Assembly: GCA_026928325.1 (NCBI GenBank)
Contig: JAIXKS010000008.1
Span: 1-44,927 of the forward strand
Length of the DNA: 44,927 nt
Source: Chitinophagales bacterium
GTDB taxonomy: Bacteria > Bacteroidota > Bacteroidia > Chitinophagales > Saprospiraceae
Reading direction: 5' to 3'
The notes under the pieces were generated by a model. That model worked only from the letters and a program-made list of their open reading frames with translations, was not told the origin of the DNA and made no database searches. Below, in pieces: positions 18,200 to 23,965 of this stretch (its first letter is position 1; each line of letters starts with the position of its first letter). The position numbers were made by a program, and so were the translations under genes.

Positions 18200-18835
18200 A
18201 TGATTCAAACAAAAGATCTCGCATATACCTATACGGGAGGTGCGTCCATCGTTTTTCCGGATATATCTTGTGCTGCCCGAGAGATGCTATTGATACTCGG
18301 CGCCTCTGGTATTGGTAAGACGACTTTATTGCATCTCTTAGGTGGTATATTGCGCGTGCAGCAGGGAAATATTTTAATCGATACTACGGATATTAGCTCT
18401 TTGTCGGGAGCAGCCTTAGATCATTTTCGTGGCCAGAATATCGGTATAGTCTTTCAACAGAACCACTTTGTAGAAGCCCTAAACGTACTCGAAAATGTTT
18501 TATTGGCACAAAGTTTAGCAGGTCGGTCAATAAACAAAGAAAAGGCCTTGAAGCTCTTAAAAAGATTGAATATTGACCATAAAGCTGGTCAGTATATCCG
18601 CAATCTCAGTCAAGGTGAAAAACAACGTGTGGCAATCGCCCGTGCCTTAATTAATGACCCTAAGATTGTGTTGGCAGATGAATTAACTTCGGCATTGGAT
18701 GATGATAATTGTACTGAAGTGCTTCATTTGTTACAAGAACAGGCGCATCATGCCGGATCTGCCTTGATTATCGTGACGCATGATACGCGACTGAAAGACA
18801 AAATTGATCGGAAAGTAATATTGGAAAGGCCATGA
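18200..18835 (+). CDS. ABC transporter ATP-binding protein (LolD/MacB type)
   Basis: A 211-aa nucleotide-binding subunit that powers the FtsX/MacB-like permease encoded next. It has Walker A GASGIGKTT (34-42), the Q-loop in VFQQNHF, signature LSQGE (136-140) within LSQGEKQRVAIARAL, Walker B with Asp160-Glu161 in IVLADELTSALDDD, and the H-loop IVTHD. Members of this branch usually work as mechanotransmitters or lipoprotein/small-molecule extractors, not classical importers. Its stop codon overlaps the permease start by 4 bp (ATGA). The gene order with the following two CFFCG proteins recalls zinc-responsive loci, so a role in metal handling is possible. Confidence 0.92.
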   Translation: MIQTKDLAYTYTGGASIVFPDISCAAREMLLILGASGIGKTTLLHLLGGILRVQQGNILIDTTDISSLSGAALDHFRGQNIGIVFQQNHFVEALNVLENVLLAQSLAGRSINKEKALKLLKRLNIDHKAGQYIRNLSQGEKQRVAIARALINDPKIVLADELTSALDDDNCTEVLHLLQEQAHHAGSALIIVTHDTRLKDKIDRKVILERP

Positions 18836-20109
18836 ATATTTTAAAATTAGCCATCAAGAATATCCTTAAAAATCCACTCAACTTGTTGATGAGTACGGTA
18901 CTTTTCGGATTGGGCGTCGGATTAATTACGTTTTTACTCCTTTTCAACACGCAGCTCAAAGAAAAATTTGATAAGAACCTAGCCAATATTGATCTCGTCG
19001 TCGGGGCTAAAGGTAGTCCATTGCAGATGATCCTTTGCAATATGTATCATATAGACTATCCGACCGGAAATATCGATATCAAAGATGCCCGCCCGATATT
19101 GCGGGACGATCATCCTTTGATTGAGAAAGCCATTCCCTTGTCGCTTGGAGATAATTACAAATCTTATCGCATTGTCGGTACAAATCATGATTTTATAGGG
19201 TTGTATCATGGCAAAATAGCGCAAGGTCAACTTTGGAAAAAGGATCTTGAAGTGACGATCGGAAGCGTCGTAGCGCTTGAAACCGGGCTAAAGATTGGAG
19301 ATACTTTTGCGAGTGCACACGGATTTAACATGGACGATCACGTACATGATAATCATGGTTTCGTTGTCGTAGGCGTGTTAGAAGGTACGGGATCTGTTAT
19401 GGATCAATTGATCATGACCAATACCGCTTCTATCTGGAAGGTACACAGTCATGAAGAAGATGATGACGACCACGAACATGATGAAGCAGACCATCATCAC
19501 GACCAAGATCATGACCACGACCAAGACAATGGCAATGCTCATTTGCTACTCCATACCGACCAGCAAATCACGTCGGTACTCATTCAGTATAGAAACAAAA
19601 CCAATTTTCAGGCTTTAAATTTTGGCCGAAATATCAATGATAATACAGAAATGCAAGCTGCCTCGCCGGCTATAGAAATCAACCGTTTGTATAATATGAT
19701 TGGTATAGGAACCGATGTTCTGCATGGATTAGCGATACTTATTGCAGGTGTATCGGCACTATTTATATTTATCATGTTGTTTAAGAGTATGCGGGAGCGT
19801 AGATATGAGTTAGCTATCATGCGTGTATTGGGTGCCGGAAGGGTAAAGTTGTTTTTATTGATCATTTTGGAAGGGTTGATATTGGCTTTAATCGGTTACG
19901 CAATCGGTATCTTGATCGGTCATCTCGGCATGGAGTTGGTCGCTAAGTTTTTAAAGGCGGATTTTAGGTATTCCTTTACGGGAATGAAATGGATTCCCGA
20001 AGAAATATATTTGTTGGCTGCCGCTTTGGTTTTAGGGTTGATTGCAGCCCTCATACCGGCGATACAAGCAGCAAAAACAGATATTAACAGAACATTATCG
20101 AGAAAATAG
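18832..20109 (+). CDS. FtsX/MacB-type ABC permease with His/Asp-rich periplasmic loop
   Basis: A 425-aa permease with one N-terminal membrane helix (about 15-37), a large extracytoplasmic domain, and three C-terminal helices (about 288-310, 335-360 and 385-415). The last block carries the usual MRERRYELAIMRVLGAGR cytoplasmic loop. The unusual part is the periplasmic domain. AHGFNMDDHVHDNHG (162-176) is followed by residues 205-237, which contain ten His and many Asp/Glu, including HEHDEADHHHDQDHDHDQD. Such runs bind Zn, Ni or Cu in many proteins. The gene overlaps its ATPase by 4 bp and is followed, 73 bp on, by two secreted CFFCG proteins. A metal-linked transport or sensing role is inferred. 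Confidence 0.9.
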   Translation: MNILKLAIKNILKNPLNLLMSTVLFGLGVGLITFLLLFNTQLKEKFDKNLANIDLVVGAKGSPLQMILCNMYHIDYPTGNIDIKDARPILRDDHPLIEKAIPLSLGDNYKSYRIVGTNHDFIGLYHGKIAQGQLWKKDLEVTIGSVVALETGLKIGDTFASAHGFNMDDHVHDNHGFVVVGVLEGTGSVMDQLIMTNTASIWKVHSHEEDDDDHEHDEADHHHDQDHDHDQDNGNAHLLLHTDQQITSVLIQYRNKTNFQALNFGRNINDNTEMQAASPAIEINRLYNMIGIGTDVLHGLAILIAGVSALFIFIMLFKSMRERRYELAIMRVLGAGRVKLFLLIILEGLILALIGYAIGILIGHLGMELVAKFLKADFRYSFTGMKWIPEEIYLLAAALVLGLIAALIPAIQAAKTDINRTLSRK

Positions 20110-20182
20110 TCACTACTAAAGCATCAATTCGACCATTCGAATCGTTATACAATATAGTAGTAAAAGGAAAATATTAAATACA

Positions 20183-20638
20183 TTGAACGTACCTAAAACA
20201 TTTTGGATAATTTGTTTGCTAGTTTTCTTCCATACCGGAATATCTTACGGTCAATCGAAGGATGTATGGATGACGTTAAGTCTTGTTACGTTTAAGACAA
20301 CGTATAATCCCGATTTGCTTATGGAAGAAAGTGTTGCTAAGCTTTCATCAGCAGTTGAAAAACTAGAAGGAACAGAGGTAGAATTAGAAGGATATATCAT
20401 TCCGCTAACCGGACAGGTTACCCAAAGTCACTTTATGCTGAGTAAATTCCCACAAAGTACTTGTTTTTTTTGTGGGAAAGCTGGACCAGAAACAGCGATG
20501 CAGGTATTTATGCGGGATAATAAAAAGATTAAAGTCACAGAACGAAAAGTTCGGGTTAAAGGTACCTTATATATTAACCCTAAGGATGCGTCTAGTTTGC
20601 TTTATACACTTGAAAATGCTGTTTTGACAGAGATTTAA
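20183..20638 (+). CDS. Secreted CFFCG-AGPE protein, first of tandem pair (DUF3299-like?)
   Basis: A 151-aa protein with a signal peptide (FWIICLLVFFHTGISYGQ) and a single compact domain. The core reads LEGYIIPL, then HFMLSKFP and CFFCGKAGPETAMQV, then a second beta unit VRVKGTLYINP. The EGYIIPL-F-C layout, the length and the position after an ABC ATPase/permease resemble DUF3299 proteins (small OB-like, Cys-containing, periplasmic); that link is a remote match from memory. The start is a TTG at 20183. No in-frame ATG lies upstream before the signal peptide, and AAAAGGAAAA at 20162-20171 is a good ribosome-binding site. It is paralogous to the next gene. Confidence 0.75.
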   Translation: MNVPKTFWIICLLVFFHTGISYGQSKDVWMTLSLVTFKTTYNPDLLMEESVAKLSSAVEKLEGTEVELEGYIIPLTGQVTQSHFMLSKFPQSTCFFCGKAGPETAMQVFMRDNKKIKVTERKVRVKGTLYINPKDASSLLYTLENAVLTEI

Positions 20639-20648
20639 AAACCTAAAA

Positions 20649-21089
20649 ATGATGAGATCATTATTCTTTATATTAGCCTTGTTCATGGGTGCTTCTTTGG
20701 AGGCTCAAAACAAAGAAGACATTTGGAAGCAATTGTCCAAAGTCACTTATAAAAAAGAATATGATGCCTTAATGGGTTTTAAGGTAGATAAGCCGGTCTT
20801 TGGAGAATCTGTGCGCCTACTTGAAAACAAAGAAATTGTAATCAGAGGCTATATCATACCAACCGATGGCTATAAAAGCCATAAGGAGTTTGTGTTTTCG
20901 GCTTATCCATTTAGTATGTGTTTTTTTTGTGGAGGTGCCGGGCCGGAGACTGTGATGGAAGTAGAAGCGATAGAAGCCATAAAATACACCGTAGAACCCA
21001 TTACTATTAAAGGTATATTAAAATTGAATGACAAGGATATCAACCGCTTGATGTTTAAACTCGTTCAAGCTCAATTTGTTAAAAGCTAG
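20649..21089 (+). CDS. Secreted CFFCG-AGPE protein, second of tandem pair
   Basis: A 146-aa exported protein (signal peptide SLFFILALFMGASLEAQ) clearly paralogous to the preceding gene. Both share D-(V/I)-W near the mature N-terminus, a VT(F/Y)K strand, GYIIP, a F-S-x-(F/Y)P segment, CFFCGxAGPETxM and a G-(T/I)-L-x-x-(N)-D/K-x-D tail. The pair of Cys in CFFCG with a following acidic residue could bind a metal or form a disulfide. The 10-bp gap to the first copy indicates one transcript. The function is not established; see the first copy for the DUF3299 comparison. Confidence 0.75.
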   Translation: MMRSLFFILALFMGASLEAQNKEDIWKQLSKVTYKKEYDALMGFKVDKPVFGESVRLLENKEIVIRGYIIPTDGYKSHKEFVFSAYPFSMCFFCGGAGPETVMEVEAIEAIKYTVEPITIKGILKLNDKDINRLMFKLVQAQFVKS

Positions 21090-21110: not shown

Positions 21111-22034
21111 ATGAACTTTCAACAGCCTATATCGGTTACAACTCTTGCTCAAAAGTATTCATTATTAATCAAGGGAAATACGCATAATTTAGCCCTAGGG
21201 ATTAATGAAATACACAAAGTTAGAAAAGGCGATATCACCTTTGTAGATGTTGAGAAATACTATTTAAAGTCTCTAAATTCCCAAGCGACAATTATTATCA
21301 TTAATAAGGATGTTCCTTGCCCAGAAGGTAAGACCCTATTTATTACAGAAGATCCTTTTGCTATTTATAACCAAATTGTTTGGGAAAACAGACCAATGAA
21401 ATATCTCCAATCTAACATGGGCGAAAACGTCAGTATCGGCGAAGACACACATATAGATTTTGGAGCGTATATTGGACACGATGTTACGATTGGCAAGGGT
21501 TGCTATATCCAATCGGGCGCATATATCGGAGATAATACCGTTATTGGCGATCGGGTCAATATCCAGGCCGGTGCATTGATAGGTACAGATGCTTTTTATT
21601 TTAAAAAAATCAATGGTAAGTACCAAAAATGGCGTTCCGGAGGTCGAGTTATCATCGAAGATGACGCAGAGATAGGAGCCGGATGCACGGTCAATCGTGG
21701 CGTATCGGGAGATACGATCATCGGTAGCGGCACAAAATTAGACAGCCAGGTGCATGTGGGACATGGTGTCGTCATTGGCAAGGATTGTCTGATAGCGGCA
21801 CAAGTAGGTATAGCCGGAAAAACCATGATTGGCTCCAACTGTGTCATCTACGGTCAGGTAGGCATAGCCCAAAATCTGGTAATAGGCGACAATGTAATCA
21901 TCCTCGCCAAAAGCGGCATATCAAAAAATCTTGAATCCAACAAAACCTACTTCGGTATTCCAGCCGACGATGCCCGCACCAAGTTTAAAGAGTTACTCAG
22001 CATAAAGCAACAACTCAGGGAAAGGAGGAAGTAA
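21111..22034 (+). CDS. LpxD-like UDP-3-O-acylglucosamine N-acyltransferase family protein
   Basis: A 307-aa left-handed beta-helix protein. The N-terminal ~100 residues resemble the LpxD uridine-binding domain ([15 protein letters not shown]). Many isoleucine-patch hexapeptides follow, with the LpxD-type segment [17 protein letters not shown], then [20 protein letters not shown], and the likely catalytic His218 in HVGHGVVIG. LpxD proper is usually about 340 aa and adds the N-linked 3-hydroxyacyl chain of lipid A. This shorter form may be a second LpxD paralogue or an acyltransferase for another nucleotide sugar. It starts 21 bp after the CFFCG pair, so it may share their transcript. Confidence 0.8.
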
Positions 22035-22327: not shown

Positions 22328-23965
22328 ATGAAAAATTTAATATCATATATATTTGTATTGTGCGGTATAAACTTTGCAATAGCACAGGAAACTATTGATG
22401 TGAAGTTTAATGAGGCAGTACCAATATGGGTACATACTATGGTTGATACAACCTTTGTCCCAGTATCTGGTCAGCCATATTTTACAAAGTATTCTTCCTT
22501 ATATCCACATATAGCACACAGAGATGGTGATTTTGTTTATACTATGGGTGTGTGTACAGAAAAACAAAGTCTTAGAGACTATGGGTTTGTATTGGATAAA
22601 ATAGATTTGAAAACAGGGCTGAAAGTATGGTCGCATTATAATACGCCATACAATGCGGGTCATAAGGACTTTTATCACACAATATATGTGTCCGAAAAGG
22701 GAATTGAGTTAGTTGGCTCAACAGAGGACACGGACGGTAGACTTTTTGCAACCTATAAAGTAATAGATATTAATACAGGTGATTTAGTAAAATTCAGAAA
22801 GTCTGAAAATGGTGGATTAAATGACAATTTTTACACGAGGTATTTTGATGGTCACGTATTACATTCGGATTCTGTTTTACTCCATGGGTATGAATTTGTG
22901 TACGTCAGTGGTACAATTGAAAACCCCATTTATGATTATAGTTTGAAAACTGAAGTTTATGATCGGGATATGAACATTCTGGAAGGTAGGTCTTTCTCTT
23001 TTGAATTTGATAATCTTGGTGATTTTTCAATAGATCAGCCTAATATGACCTTGCGTTTGAATGAAAATACATTGGTAAGCCTTGCATATAAAGACCGAAT
23101 AGAATCCTGGGATAATCTGGGTACTAAAATTATGTGGACTAATATTTCTGATCCTTACGATATAAAAATCCGTCAAATCAGAGATTATACTGATATAGTA
23201 CCTGGAACAAAAGCACATTTCAATCTTCAACGCTTCCAAACTTTCAACAATTCCATATTTTTAAGTCATTATTATCCTAATTTTGACATTGAACAGAATA
23301 CAAGCTATGTCTTATGGTTGGACTCAATCGGGGATATTAAAACTTTTGTACCCGTATCTAATCATAGAGAGCATATTTATGAGCTGACTGAAATGATGTA
23401 TGCAAATGATGATTTTGCGTATTTAAGCGCTTTTCCGTCGGTAACAGGCAAATATGGTTTTGATATAATCCGGATAGAGCAGGGTGTTGACACGGTAAGA
23501 TATATCTCATCTCTAACATCTGCAGTTGAAGGGGAAGCCTATGCGAAAAATTCCTATAATCTTACACAACTATTTGATGACGGCTACTTGATTACCGGTG
23601 GTTATTCTACAAAAGAGGGACAAGGAACTAAATCAGCATATAAGATTTATTGTTTTAAAGCAGCTGACTTAGGCATTCATTTTGAGCCGGTAAGCACGTC
23701 CAATGTCAGTACTTCAAAACTCAATTTTGATATATTTCCTAATCCGGCATCTTCATCATTATATGTAAAATTGACGGATACAAATCAAAATTATAAAATG
23801 AATATTTTGGATTTGAATGGTAAGCTGATATCGACCAGCAATATTGAGCAGAATTTTGCTCATGTCGATATTTCAAATTTACATAACGGCATTTATTTTG
23901 TGAAGCTAATAAACGAAAAAGGAGAACAGGTTAGTGAGTTAAGGAAATTAGTGAAGATTGAATAG
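22328..23965 (+). CDS. Secreted T9SS type A sorting-domain protein, function unknown
   Basis: A 545-aa protein with an N-terminal signal peptide (ending FAIAQ). The C-terminal ~80 residues form a T9SS type A sorting domain: FDIFPNPASSSLYVKL, MNILDLNGKLIST, ISNLHNGIYFVKL and a basic end RKLVKIE. The signal is thus for export to the cell surface or medium, with possible anchoring. The middle ~440 residues hold repeating hydrophobic strands with D/N turns (for example YKVIDINTGDLVK) and may be a beta-propeller-like domain; no enzyme motif is visible. It is a single gene, convergent with the DUF3127 gene. Confidence 0.8.
   Translation: MKNLISYIFVLCGINFAIAQETIDVKFNEAVPIWVHTMVDTTFVPVSGQPYFTKYSSLYPHIAHRDGDFVYTMGVCTEKQSLRDYGFVLDKIDLKTGLKVWSHYNTPYNAGHKDFYHTIYVSEKGIELVGSTEDTDGRLFATYKVIDINTGDLVKFRKSENGGLNDNFYTRYFDGHVLHSDSVLLHGYEFVYVSGTIENPIYDYSLKTEVYDRDMNILEGRSFSFEFDNLGDFSIDQPNMTLRLNENTLVSLAYKDRIESWDNLGTKIMWTNISDPYDIKIRQIRDYTDIVPGTKAHFNLQRFQTFNNSIFLSHYYPNFDIEQNTSYVLWLDSIGDIKTFVPVSNHREHIYELTEMMYANDDFAYLSAFPSVTGKYGFDIIRIEQGVDTVRYISSLTSAVEGEAYAKNSYNLTQLFDDGYLITGGYSTKEGQGTKSAYKIYCFKAADLGIHFEPVSTSNVSTSKLNFDIFPNPASSSLYVKLTDTNQNYKMNILDLNGKLISTSNIEQNFAHVDISNLHNGIYFVKLINEKGEQVSELRKLVKIE

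Follow-up and report, generated by a model that had tools for sequence, protein, structure and literature searches.

In this study, we analyzed a 44,927-nucleotide stretch of DNA from a Chitinophagales bacterium of the family Saprospiraceae (assembly GCA_026928325.1, contig JAIXKS010000008.1, positions 1 to 44,927 of the forward strand; hereafter the window). Four genes of the window encode an ATP-binding cassette (ABC) ATPase, an FtsX/MacB-fold permease with a His-rich periplasmic stretch and two small exported proteins. This module is probably a Bacteroidota branch of the ABC family of ZrgC/ZrgB and PA4064/PA4065, and would act as an ATP-driven machine for periplasmic zinc handling. The likely metal, zinc, is suggested by the gene surroundings of relatives and by the known cousins rather than directly by the window. 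The genes of the module are as follows.

18200 to 18835, forward strand: LolD-type ABC ATPase of 211 amino acids (aa); PF00005, E 7.1e-30
18832 to 20109, forward strand: FtsX/MacB-fold permease of 425 aa with the His-rich periplasmic stretch; PF02687, E 1.5e-15, and PF12704, E 1.1e-6
20183 to 20638, forward strand: small protein 1, an exported OB-fold-like DUF3299 relative of 151 aa with a TTG start and the motif CFFCGKAGPE; PF11736, E 8.1e-4, under the cut-off
20462 to 20473, forward strand: codons of C94-F-F-C97 in small protein 1, both Cys invariant in relatives
20649 to 21089, forward strand: small protein 2, an exported DUF3299 relative of 146 aa with the motif CFFCGGAGPE; PF11736, E 0.011, under the cut-off

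A preliminary description of the window had reported four adjacent reading frames on this strand, and all four are open at these positions. The ATPase and permease genes overlap by 4 bases, and gaps of 73 and 10 bases precede the genes for small proteins 1 and 2, respectively.

The Zrg and PA4063-PA4066 operons of Vibrio and Pseudomonas are induced in zinc shortage, according to excerpts of two reports (PMC9817125, PMC11481552). The preliminary description had taken the module for their Bacteroidota counterpart, and this holds, as the window permease retrieves loci with the order ZrgA-ATPase-permease-DUF3299. By tblastn, its alignments to three ZrgA-containing loci covered 70-74% of the query at 25.6-27.8% identity (E 1e-23 to 2e-22). 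Sixteen loci of a plasmid collection, picked among the permease matches, were opened, and five were of the ZrgA type and eleven of a PhoA type. The five ZrgA(DUF2796)-ATPase-permease-DUF3299 loci were from Aeromonas, Phaeobacter, P. aeruginosa, Sulfitobacter and Rhodobacteraceae SC52, and the Phaeobacter locus includes a Fur-family gene. The Vibrio ZrgABCDE operon (zrgB permease, zrgC ATPase, zrgA DUF2796, zrgE DUF3299) has the same run of ATPase, FtsX/MacB-type permease and DUF3299-related genes; the permease homology and three shared His were seen through the other proteobacterial loci. The same gene types occur in PA4063-PA4066. Unlike both systems, the window module has no adjacent ZrgA and no palindromic box (see below), its His-rich stretch sits on the permease, and its small proteins have CFFCG-AGPE where ZrgE-type proteins have the C-x-H-x-PPPP site. 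The PA system is described as zinc-regulated and has been assigned to pyochelin-cobalt export (excerpt of PMC11481552). Among the matches listed in open-access papers, no Bacteroidota counterpart was found, which is weak evidence of absence, and no title on DUF3299 concerned Bacteroidota.

The small proteins are remote relatives of DUF3299 (ZrgE/PA4066), with a predicted OB-like fold. Both have a hydrophobic N-terminal stretch (by eye) and are 33% identical to each other. The CFFCG-AGPE motif noted earlier in both was confirmed in the form CFFCG-[KG]AGPE. Their scores for PF11736 (DUF3299) were 19.9 and 16.3 bits against a curated cut-off of 22. The similarity to DUF3299 profiles that the preliminary description had anticipated was nevertheless found by profile-profile and fold comparison. 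When hhalign was used to compare the small-protein family with a set of seven DUF3299 proteins taken from five loci of Proteobacteria, the probability was 95.8 with an E value of 7.6e-9, which is lenient because it was computed for one pair. With a profile of 27 relatives, the best PDB sequence match was 4hsp, which is PA4066, at a weak E of 0.054. The AlphaFold2 (AF2) model of small protein 1 had a predicted local distance difference test (pLDDT) value of 89.3, and 4hsp was again its best match, being the sole fold match below 1e-3 (E 1.1e-4, TM-score about 0.43). Both Cys of CFFC were invariant in the 27 relatives and also in 43 aligned relatives, and in ZrgE-type proteins the C-x-H-x-PPPP site stands at the position of CFFC. 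Small proteins 1 and 2 fell into different clades, each with orthologues in other Saprospiraceae, in a tree in which long branches meet and only 19 of the 48 inner branches were well supported. A third CFFCG-domain homologue, lipoprotein-like and away from ABC genes, is encoded on contig C3 of the window's genome (L003:1501-1863).

By Pfam, the permease combines a C-terminal FtsX domain with a periplasmic domain of the MacB type. Its AF2 model (pLDDT 88.8) matched LolCDE, MacB (5gko, TMq 0.65), HrtBA and YbbAP in Foldseek. Ten His at residues 205-237 and four at residues 163-175 (H163, H170, H172 and H175) were counted, as had been claimed. The positions of interest are listed below.

19318 to 19320, forward strand: codon of H163, the first near-invariant His (HG motif), kept in 125 of 126 permeases
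19345 to 19347, forward strand: codon of H172, the second near-invariant His, kept in 122 of 126
19444 to 19446, forward strand: codon of H205, the third near-invariant His (WxxH in most), which opens the His-rich stretch, kept in 125 of 126
19444 to 19542, forward strand: His/Asp/Glu-rich stretch, residues 205-237, with ten His, from the sequence

These 126 distinct Bacteroidota permeases remained when six near-identical copies were removed from 132, which came from 53 loci of the order Chitinophagales and 79 of 80 loci of a named scan; locus L140 was left out since it has no complete frame. In these permeases, the region from H205 (included) to before T247 contains 22% His, versus 2% in the remaining permease, an enrichment beyond chance. 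It has a median of 8 His, with at least four in 109 permeases and at most two in eight, and its length varies from 12 to 148 aa. Thus, most close homologues share the His loop, a point on which the preliminary description had made its proposal depend. Within the stretch, pLDDT fell below 50 at residues 214-227, and the loop is predicted to be disordered.

A further alignment of 20 permeases from three phyla was prepared, with 13 of the 53 order loci (without L085), four Pseudomonadota and three Deinococcota. The only invariant His in this chosen set were H163, H172 and H205. H163 and H172 belong to the second His cluster of the preliminary description, and H205 starts the His-rich stretch. The seven aligned permeases from outside Bacteroidota keep the three His and have no His-rich stretch after H205; in the Cereibacter permease, H163 and H172 are separated by a His/Asp-rich stretch. 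Among the 126 permeases, the one of locus L085 (genome G106) was the sole example without all three conserved His. We read this pattern in the alignments as a putative conserved core site of three His accompanied by a variable, metal-collecting stretch.

ZrgA was found in none of the 198 genomes of the order, including the window's own, and none of the 14 control genomes of the search was positive; the same model was positive in all five proteobacterial records that have ZrgA. The preliminary description had regarded the permease as one into which the His-rich metal binder is fused. The loop, which is predicted to be disordered, gave only a weak match to ZrgA (E 0.11), confined to the His stretch. 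A fusion of ZrgA was therefore rejected, the match being one of composition. A more apt description is that a permease already bearing the family-wide three-His motif also has a His-rich stretch, in an order in which our search detected no ZrgA. A duplication of the DUF3299-like gene had also been put forward as special. Two such genes are indeed present, but tandem copies occur in the ZrgA loci of Sulfitobacter and Rhodobacteraceae SC52 and two or three genes at 17 of the 80 named Bacteroidota loci, so that uniqueness was rejected.

In an excerpt of PMC9820375, zinc import is attributed to the V. cholerae operon, in which ZrgA serves as the binding protein; the window module could accordingly be a true zinc importer, whose permease moves zinc into the cytoplasm and whose His loop replaces ZrgA. 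The failure to find ZrgA in the order fits this explanation. The predicted fold, which is that of LolCDE, MacB, HrtBA and YbbAP, speaks against it; to our knowledge, none of these is an importer. Furthermore, since the His-rich loop of ZrgA is dispensable in V. cholerae by the excerpted account (PMC9820375), the loop alone need not replace ZrgA. We consider import unlikely.

The module is widespread. The permease was detected in 53 of the 198 genomes of the order and in 64 of 395 genomes of a phylum sample, for which scoring was limited to four candidates per genome. In the named scan, the best 80 of at least 576 relatives were from Saprospiraceae, Pedobacter, Cyclobacteriaceae, Dyadobacter, Proteiniphilum and others, and those closest to the window were mostly Saprospiraceae. 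The ATPase gene lies directly upstream of the permease at 51 of the 53 order loci and 70 of the 80 named loci, and a DUF3299-like gene lies closely downstream at 25 and 45 of them, respectively. Eight Pedobacter loci (L160, L164, L170, L172, L173, L174, L179 and L181) carry three tandem DUF3299-like genes after the permease. Among the genomes of the order, a DUF3299-like protein was present in 52 and accompanied by the permease in 51, so that 51 of the 54 genomes having either possess both. The Fisher p value of 1e-43 for this co-occurrence (198 related genomes) is overstated because the genomes share ancestry. The permease occurred without a DUF3299-like protein in G077 (83% complete) and G106 (100%), and the reverse was seen in G013 alone, which is of the same genus as G077. 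The complete permease-only genome G106 is the one whose permease (L085) lost all three His.

The eleven PhoA-type loci (L092-L098, L100-L102 and L104) are on plasmids and have the order alkaline phosphatase, small CPFC protein, LolD-type ATPase, FtsX-type permease. They are from Thermus, Allomeiothermus, two Deinococcus, Qingshengfaniella, Cereibacter, Ensifer, Shinella, two Paracoccus and Rhizobium. All eleven phosphatases match PF00245, the PhoA family, whose members are zinc enzymes. No Pfam match of their own was obtained for the two CPFC proteins tested, and hhalign placed the CPFC proteins nearer to the small-protein family of the window than ZrgE-type proteins are (98.6, E 1e-15). These operons of Deinococcota and Alphaproteobacteria, for which no name was found, resemble the window in the LolD-type ATPase and in the three His, which were found in the three Deinococcota permeases and the one alphaproteobacterial permease aligned; unlike the window, these four have no His-rich stretch after H205. 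The PhoA linkage, which is a matter of gene order only, is the best clue that the family serves periplasmic metal loading. Since this branch is tied to a zinc-enzyme phosphatase family, such a metallation role is directly testable. Among the literature matches listed, none was to the point on a PhoA-linked ABC operon by title.

P. aeruginosa PA4063-PA4066 has been proposed to export a metallophore complex, pyochelin-cobalt, on the basis of published PA4065 genetics (excerpt of PMC11481552). The window module could likewise be a MacB-type exporter of a metallophore or a metal-metallophore complex; the fold match to MacB noted above agrees with this. Against it, visual inspection of the recurrent neighbour clusters revealed no gene for a MacA-like adaptor, a TolC-like protein or a metallophore, although no dedicated search for such genes was made. 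One PhoA-type locus, that of Ensifer (L095), which has a copper-chaperone gene nearby, does carry an RND (resistance-nodulation-division) adaptor and pump further downstream. Moreover, bare metal is suggested by the conservation of the periplasmic His and by the CFFC partner. Export of a metallophore is thus distinctly improbable in our estimation.

For the preferred reading, a periplasmic zinc-handling machine, the following sequence of events can be envisaged. The His-rich stretch would loosely collect zinc and raise its local concentration. H163, H172 and H205 would constitute a metal site of the MacB-like periplasmic domain or supply metal to one, and ATP hydrolysis may move this domain, as in other MacB/LolCDE-type machines, and open the site. 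The OB-fold protein could then receive or deliver the metal through its CFFC pair. As for the destination, we lean towards transfer between periplasmic proteins over the cytoplasm or another carrier.

Tentatively, the loci of the different phyla may be joined in one family, for which no name was found, of ATP-driven envelope zinc metallation machines composed of a three-His permease and an OB-fold partner with CxxC or CxH. Its three branches would be characterized by ZrgA in Proteobacteria, by PhoA in Deinococcota and Alphaproteobacteria, where the enzyme would be loaded with zinc, and by the His-rich permease stretch in Bacteroidota. In each, ATP would be used to hand the metal between periplasmic proteins and not to carry it across the membrane, an idea similar to that of NosDFY for copper. 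We regard this wider grouping as possible rather than probable. The OB-fold partner occurs in all three branches and ZrgA in one. In the excerpts considered, the part of the exporter-like permease of Zrg and PA4063-PA4066 in zinc handling and the role of DUF3299 are unsettled (PMC11481552, PMC8561739, PMC9820375). The present analysis offers three concrete permease residues, H163, H172 and H205, for testing, and the module, being common within Bacteroidota, points to a little-studied handling of zinc in the envelope.

A candidate metal regulon of Bacteroidota is also outlined by the neighbours of the module. Near the module at 79 named loci, genes for COG0523 (17), MerC-like (18) and Fur-family (21) proteins were found, and all but two of each were in Pedobacter. 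A TTGCAA-N5-TTGCAA box with 0-1 mismatches precedes the gene run at 18 of 20 Pedobacter loci, 0.7-1.5 kb ahead of the permease, while 30 control palindromes gave at most 2 of 20; the Pedobacter loci are not independent because they belong to one genus. Six of them were read gene by gene, with Pfam applied to one example of each gene. The box lies just before the MerC-like gene in five and before the ATPase gene in the sixth (L169), in four it also marks the 5′ end of a COG0523 frame that runs divergently, and the gene run ends with a Fur-family gene. The modules of G177 and G041 are likewise preceded by the box, and that of G012 by a copy with one mismatch. Of 50 upstream regions, 3 had the box with 0-1 mismatches, where shuffled sequences would lead one to expect 0.14. 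In a scan of five genomes, three of which were picked because they had the box, three of the seven perfect boxes were at the module, one was between a MerC-like gene and SCO1-like/Fur-family genes, and one was before a TonB receptor gene. A relaxed box was found at 25 places in nine Saprospiraceae genomes. Sixteen site loci were read, the genes being named mostly by eye and five by Pfam, and 13 adjoin MerC-like, TonB receptor, Fur-family, DUF3299-like lipoprotein or CzcA-like RND genes. One site in G161 is, by coordinates, between a TonB receptor gene and a lipoprotein-ATPase-permease run; two sites in G105 are possibly one place, on overlapping contig ends. From these sequence patterns, the box is a candidate metal-regulon element in Bacteroidota, and the MerC-like genes beside it may be members of a metal regulon instead of mercury-resistance genes.

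A perfect TTGCAA-N5-TTGCAA box stands 13 bases before a minus-strand DUF3299-like gene adjoining the module (L139:2409-2890). In G105, a lipoprotein similar to the third CFFCG homologue has the palindromic box at its start.

Several observations weigh against the reading of the module as a zinc-handling machine, or against its regulation by a metal. The Zur box that the preliminary description proposed to look for upstream of 18200 was not obtained; the best match to the consensus of the relatives has 3 mismatches, which is common in shuffles too, and a box before the window's module was rejected. Nothing zinc-specific was seen in the window's own neighbourhood. The sole relaxed box of its genome (L202:1501-1951) is on another contig, where a MerC-like gene starts about 50 bases further on and a FabG-like gene runs divergently on the other side. 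The genome has two Fur-family genes, one of which has Zur as its nearest match (E 1.8e-12; 47.3 bits where 167 are required); the Fur-family genes tested were far under the NCBIfam Zur cut-off, and the one adjoining the box in G161 is nearest to PerR. Two of the seven perfect boxes were inside unrelated genes of G012, the backwards control pattern occurred at two places, both in G176, and three of the 16 site loci had no recognised metal-linked neighbour. A close downstream DUF3299-like gene is absent at 28 of the 53 order loci and 35 of the 80 named loci, and H172 alone is lost in three further permeases (L065, L088 and L124). The literature on the cousins adds to these points. Excerpts state that growth was unaffected by knock-out of ZrgE in V. 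cholerae, where the ZrgA loop is dispensable as mentioned (PMC9820375), and that PA4066 showed no evident zinc-binding ability in an operon assigned to pyochelin-cobalt export (PMC11481552); in another excerpt, PA4066 has no known role (PMC8561739).

The module could also be an ordinary Lol/MacB-type envelope transporter for lipoproteins, lipids or stress signals, its His loop being a neutral insert of low complexity. In favour of this, NCBIfam gives LolD and LolCE as the best names, the length of the loop region drifts between 12 and 148 aa, and an LpxD-like gene comes next to the module. However, the LolD match of the ATPase (E 4.5e-51) and the LolCE match are far under their cut-offs, as the NCBIfam equivalog scores for LolCDE membership were 173.5 of 307.75 bits and 52.8 of 362.45 bits. 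The fold and the ATPase class are in common with LolCDE and MacB; unlike these, the gene run has a single permease with no LolC/LolE pair, and the ATPase and permease are two separate genes and not fused as in MacAB-TolC. Nor would an ordinary transporter account for the conservation of the His, the association with DUF3299-like proteins or the Pedobacter linkage to COG0523, MerC-like and Fur-family genes. We judge this explanation very unlikely.

The next gene is the following.

21111 to 22034, forward strand: LpxD-like hexapeptide acyltransferase; NCBIfam TIGR01853, E 1.4e-69, just under the cut-off, and NF002060, over the cut-off

It starts 21 bases 3′ of the module, and a neighbour of the same cluster is also present at the same-genus locus L037. 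The LpxD-like gene is possibly co-transcribed with the module, but is not thought to be part of it. Beyond the module, no neighbour recurs widely in Saprospiraceae among the neighbour clusters listed. Further downstream, positions 22328-23965 encode a secreted protein whose C-terminal end resembles a type IX secretion sorting domain (by eye).

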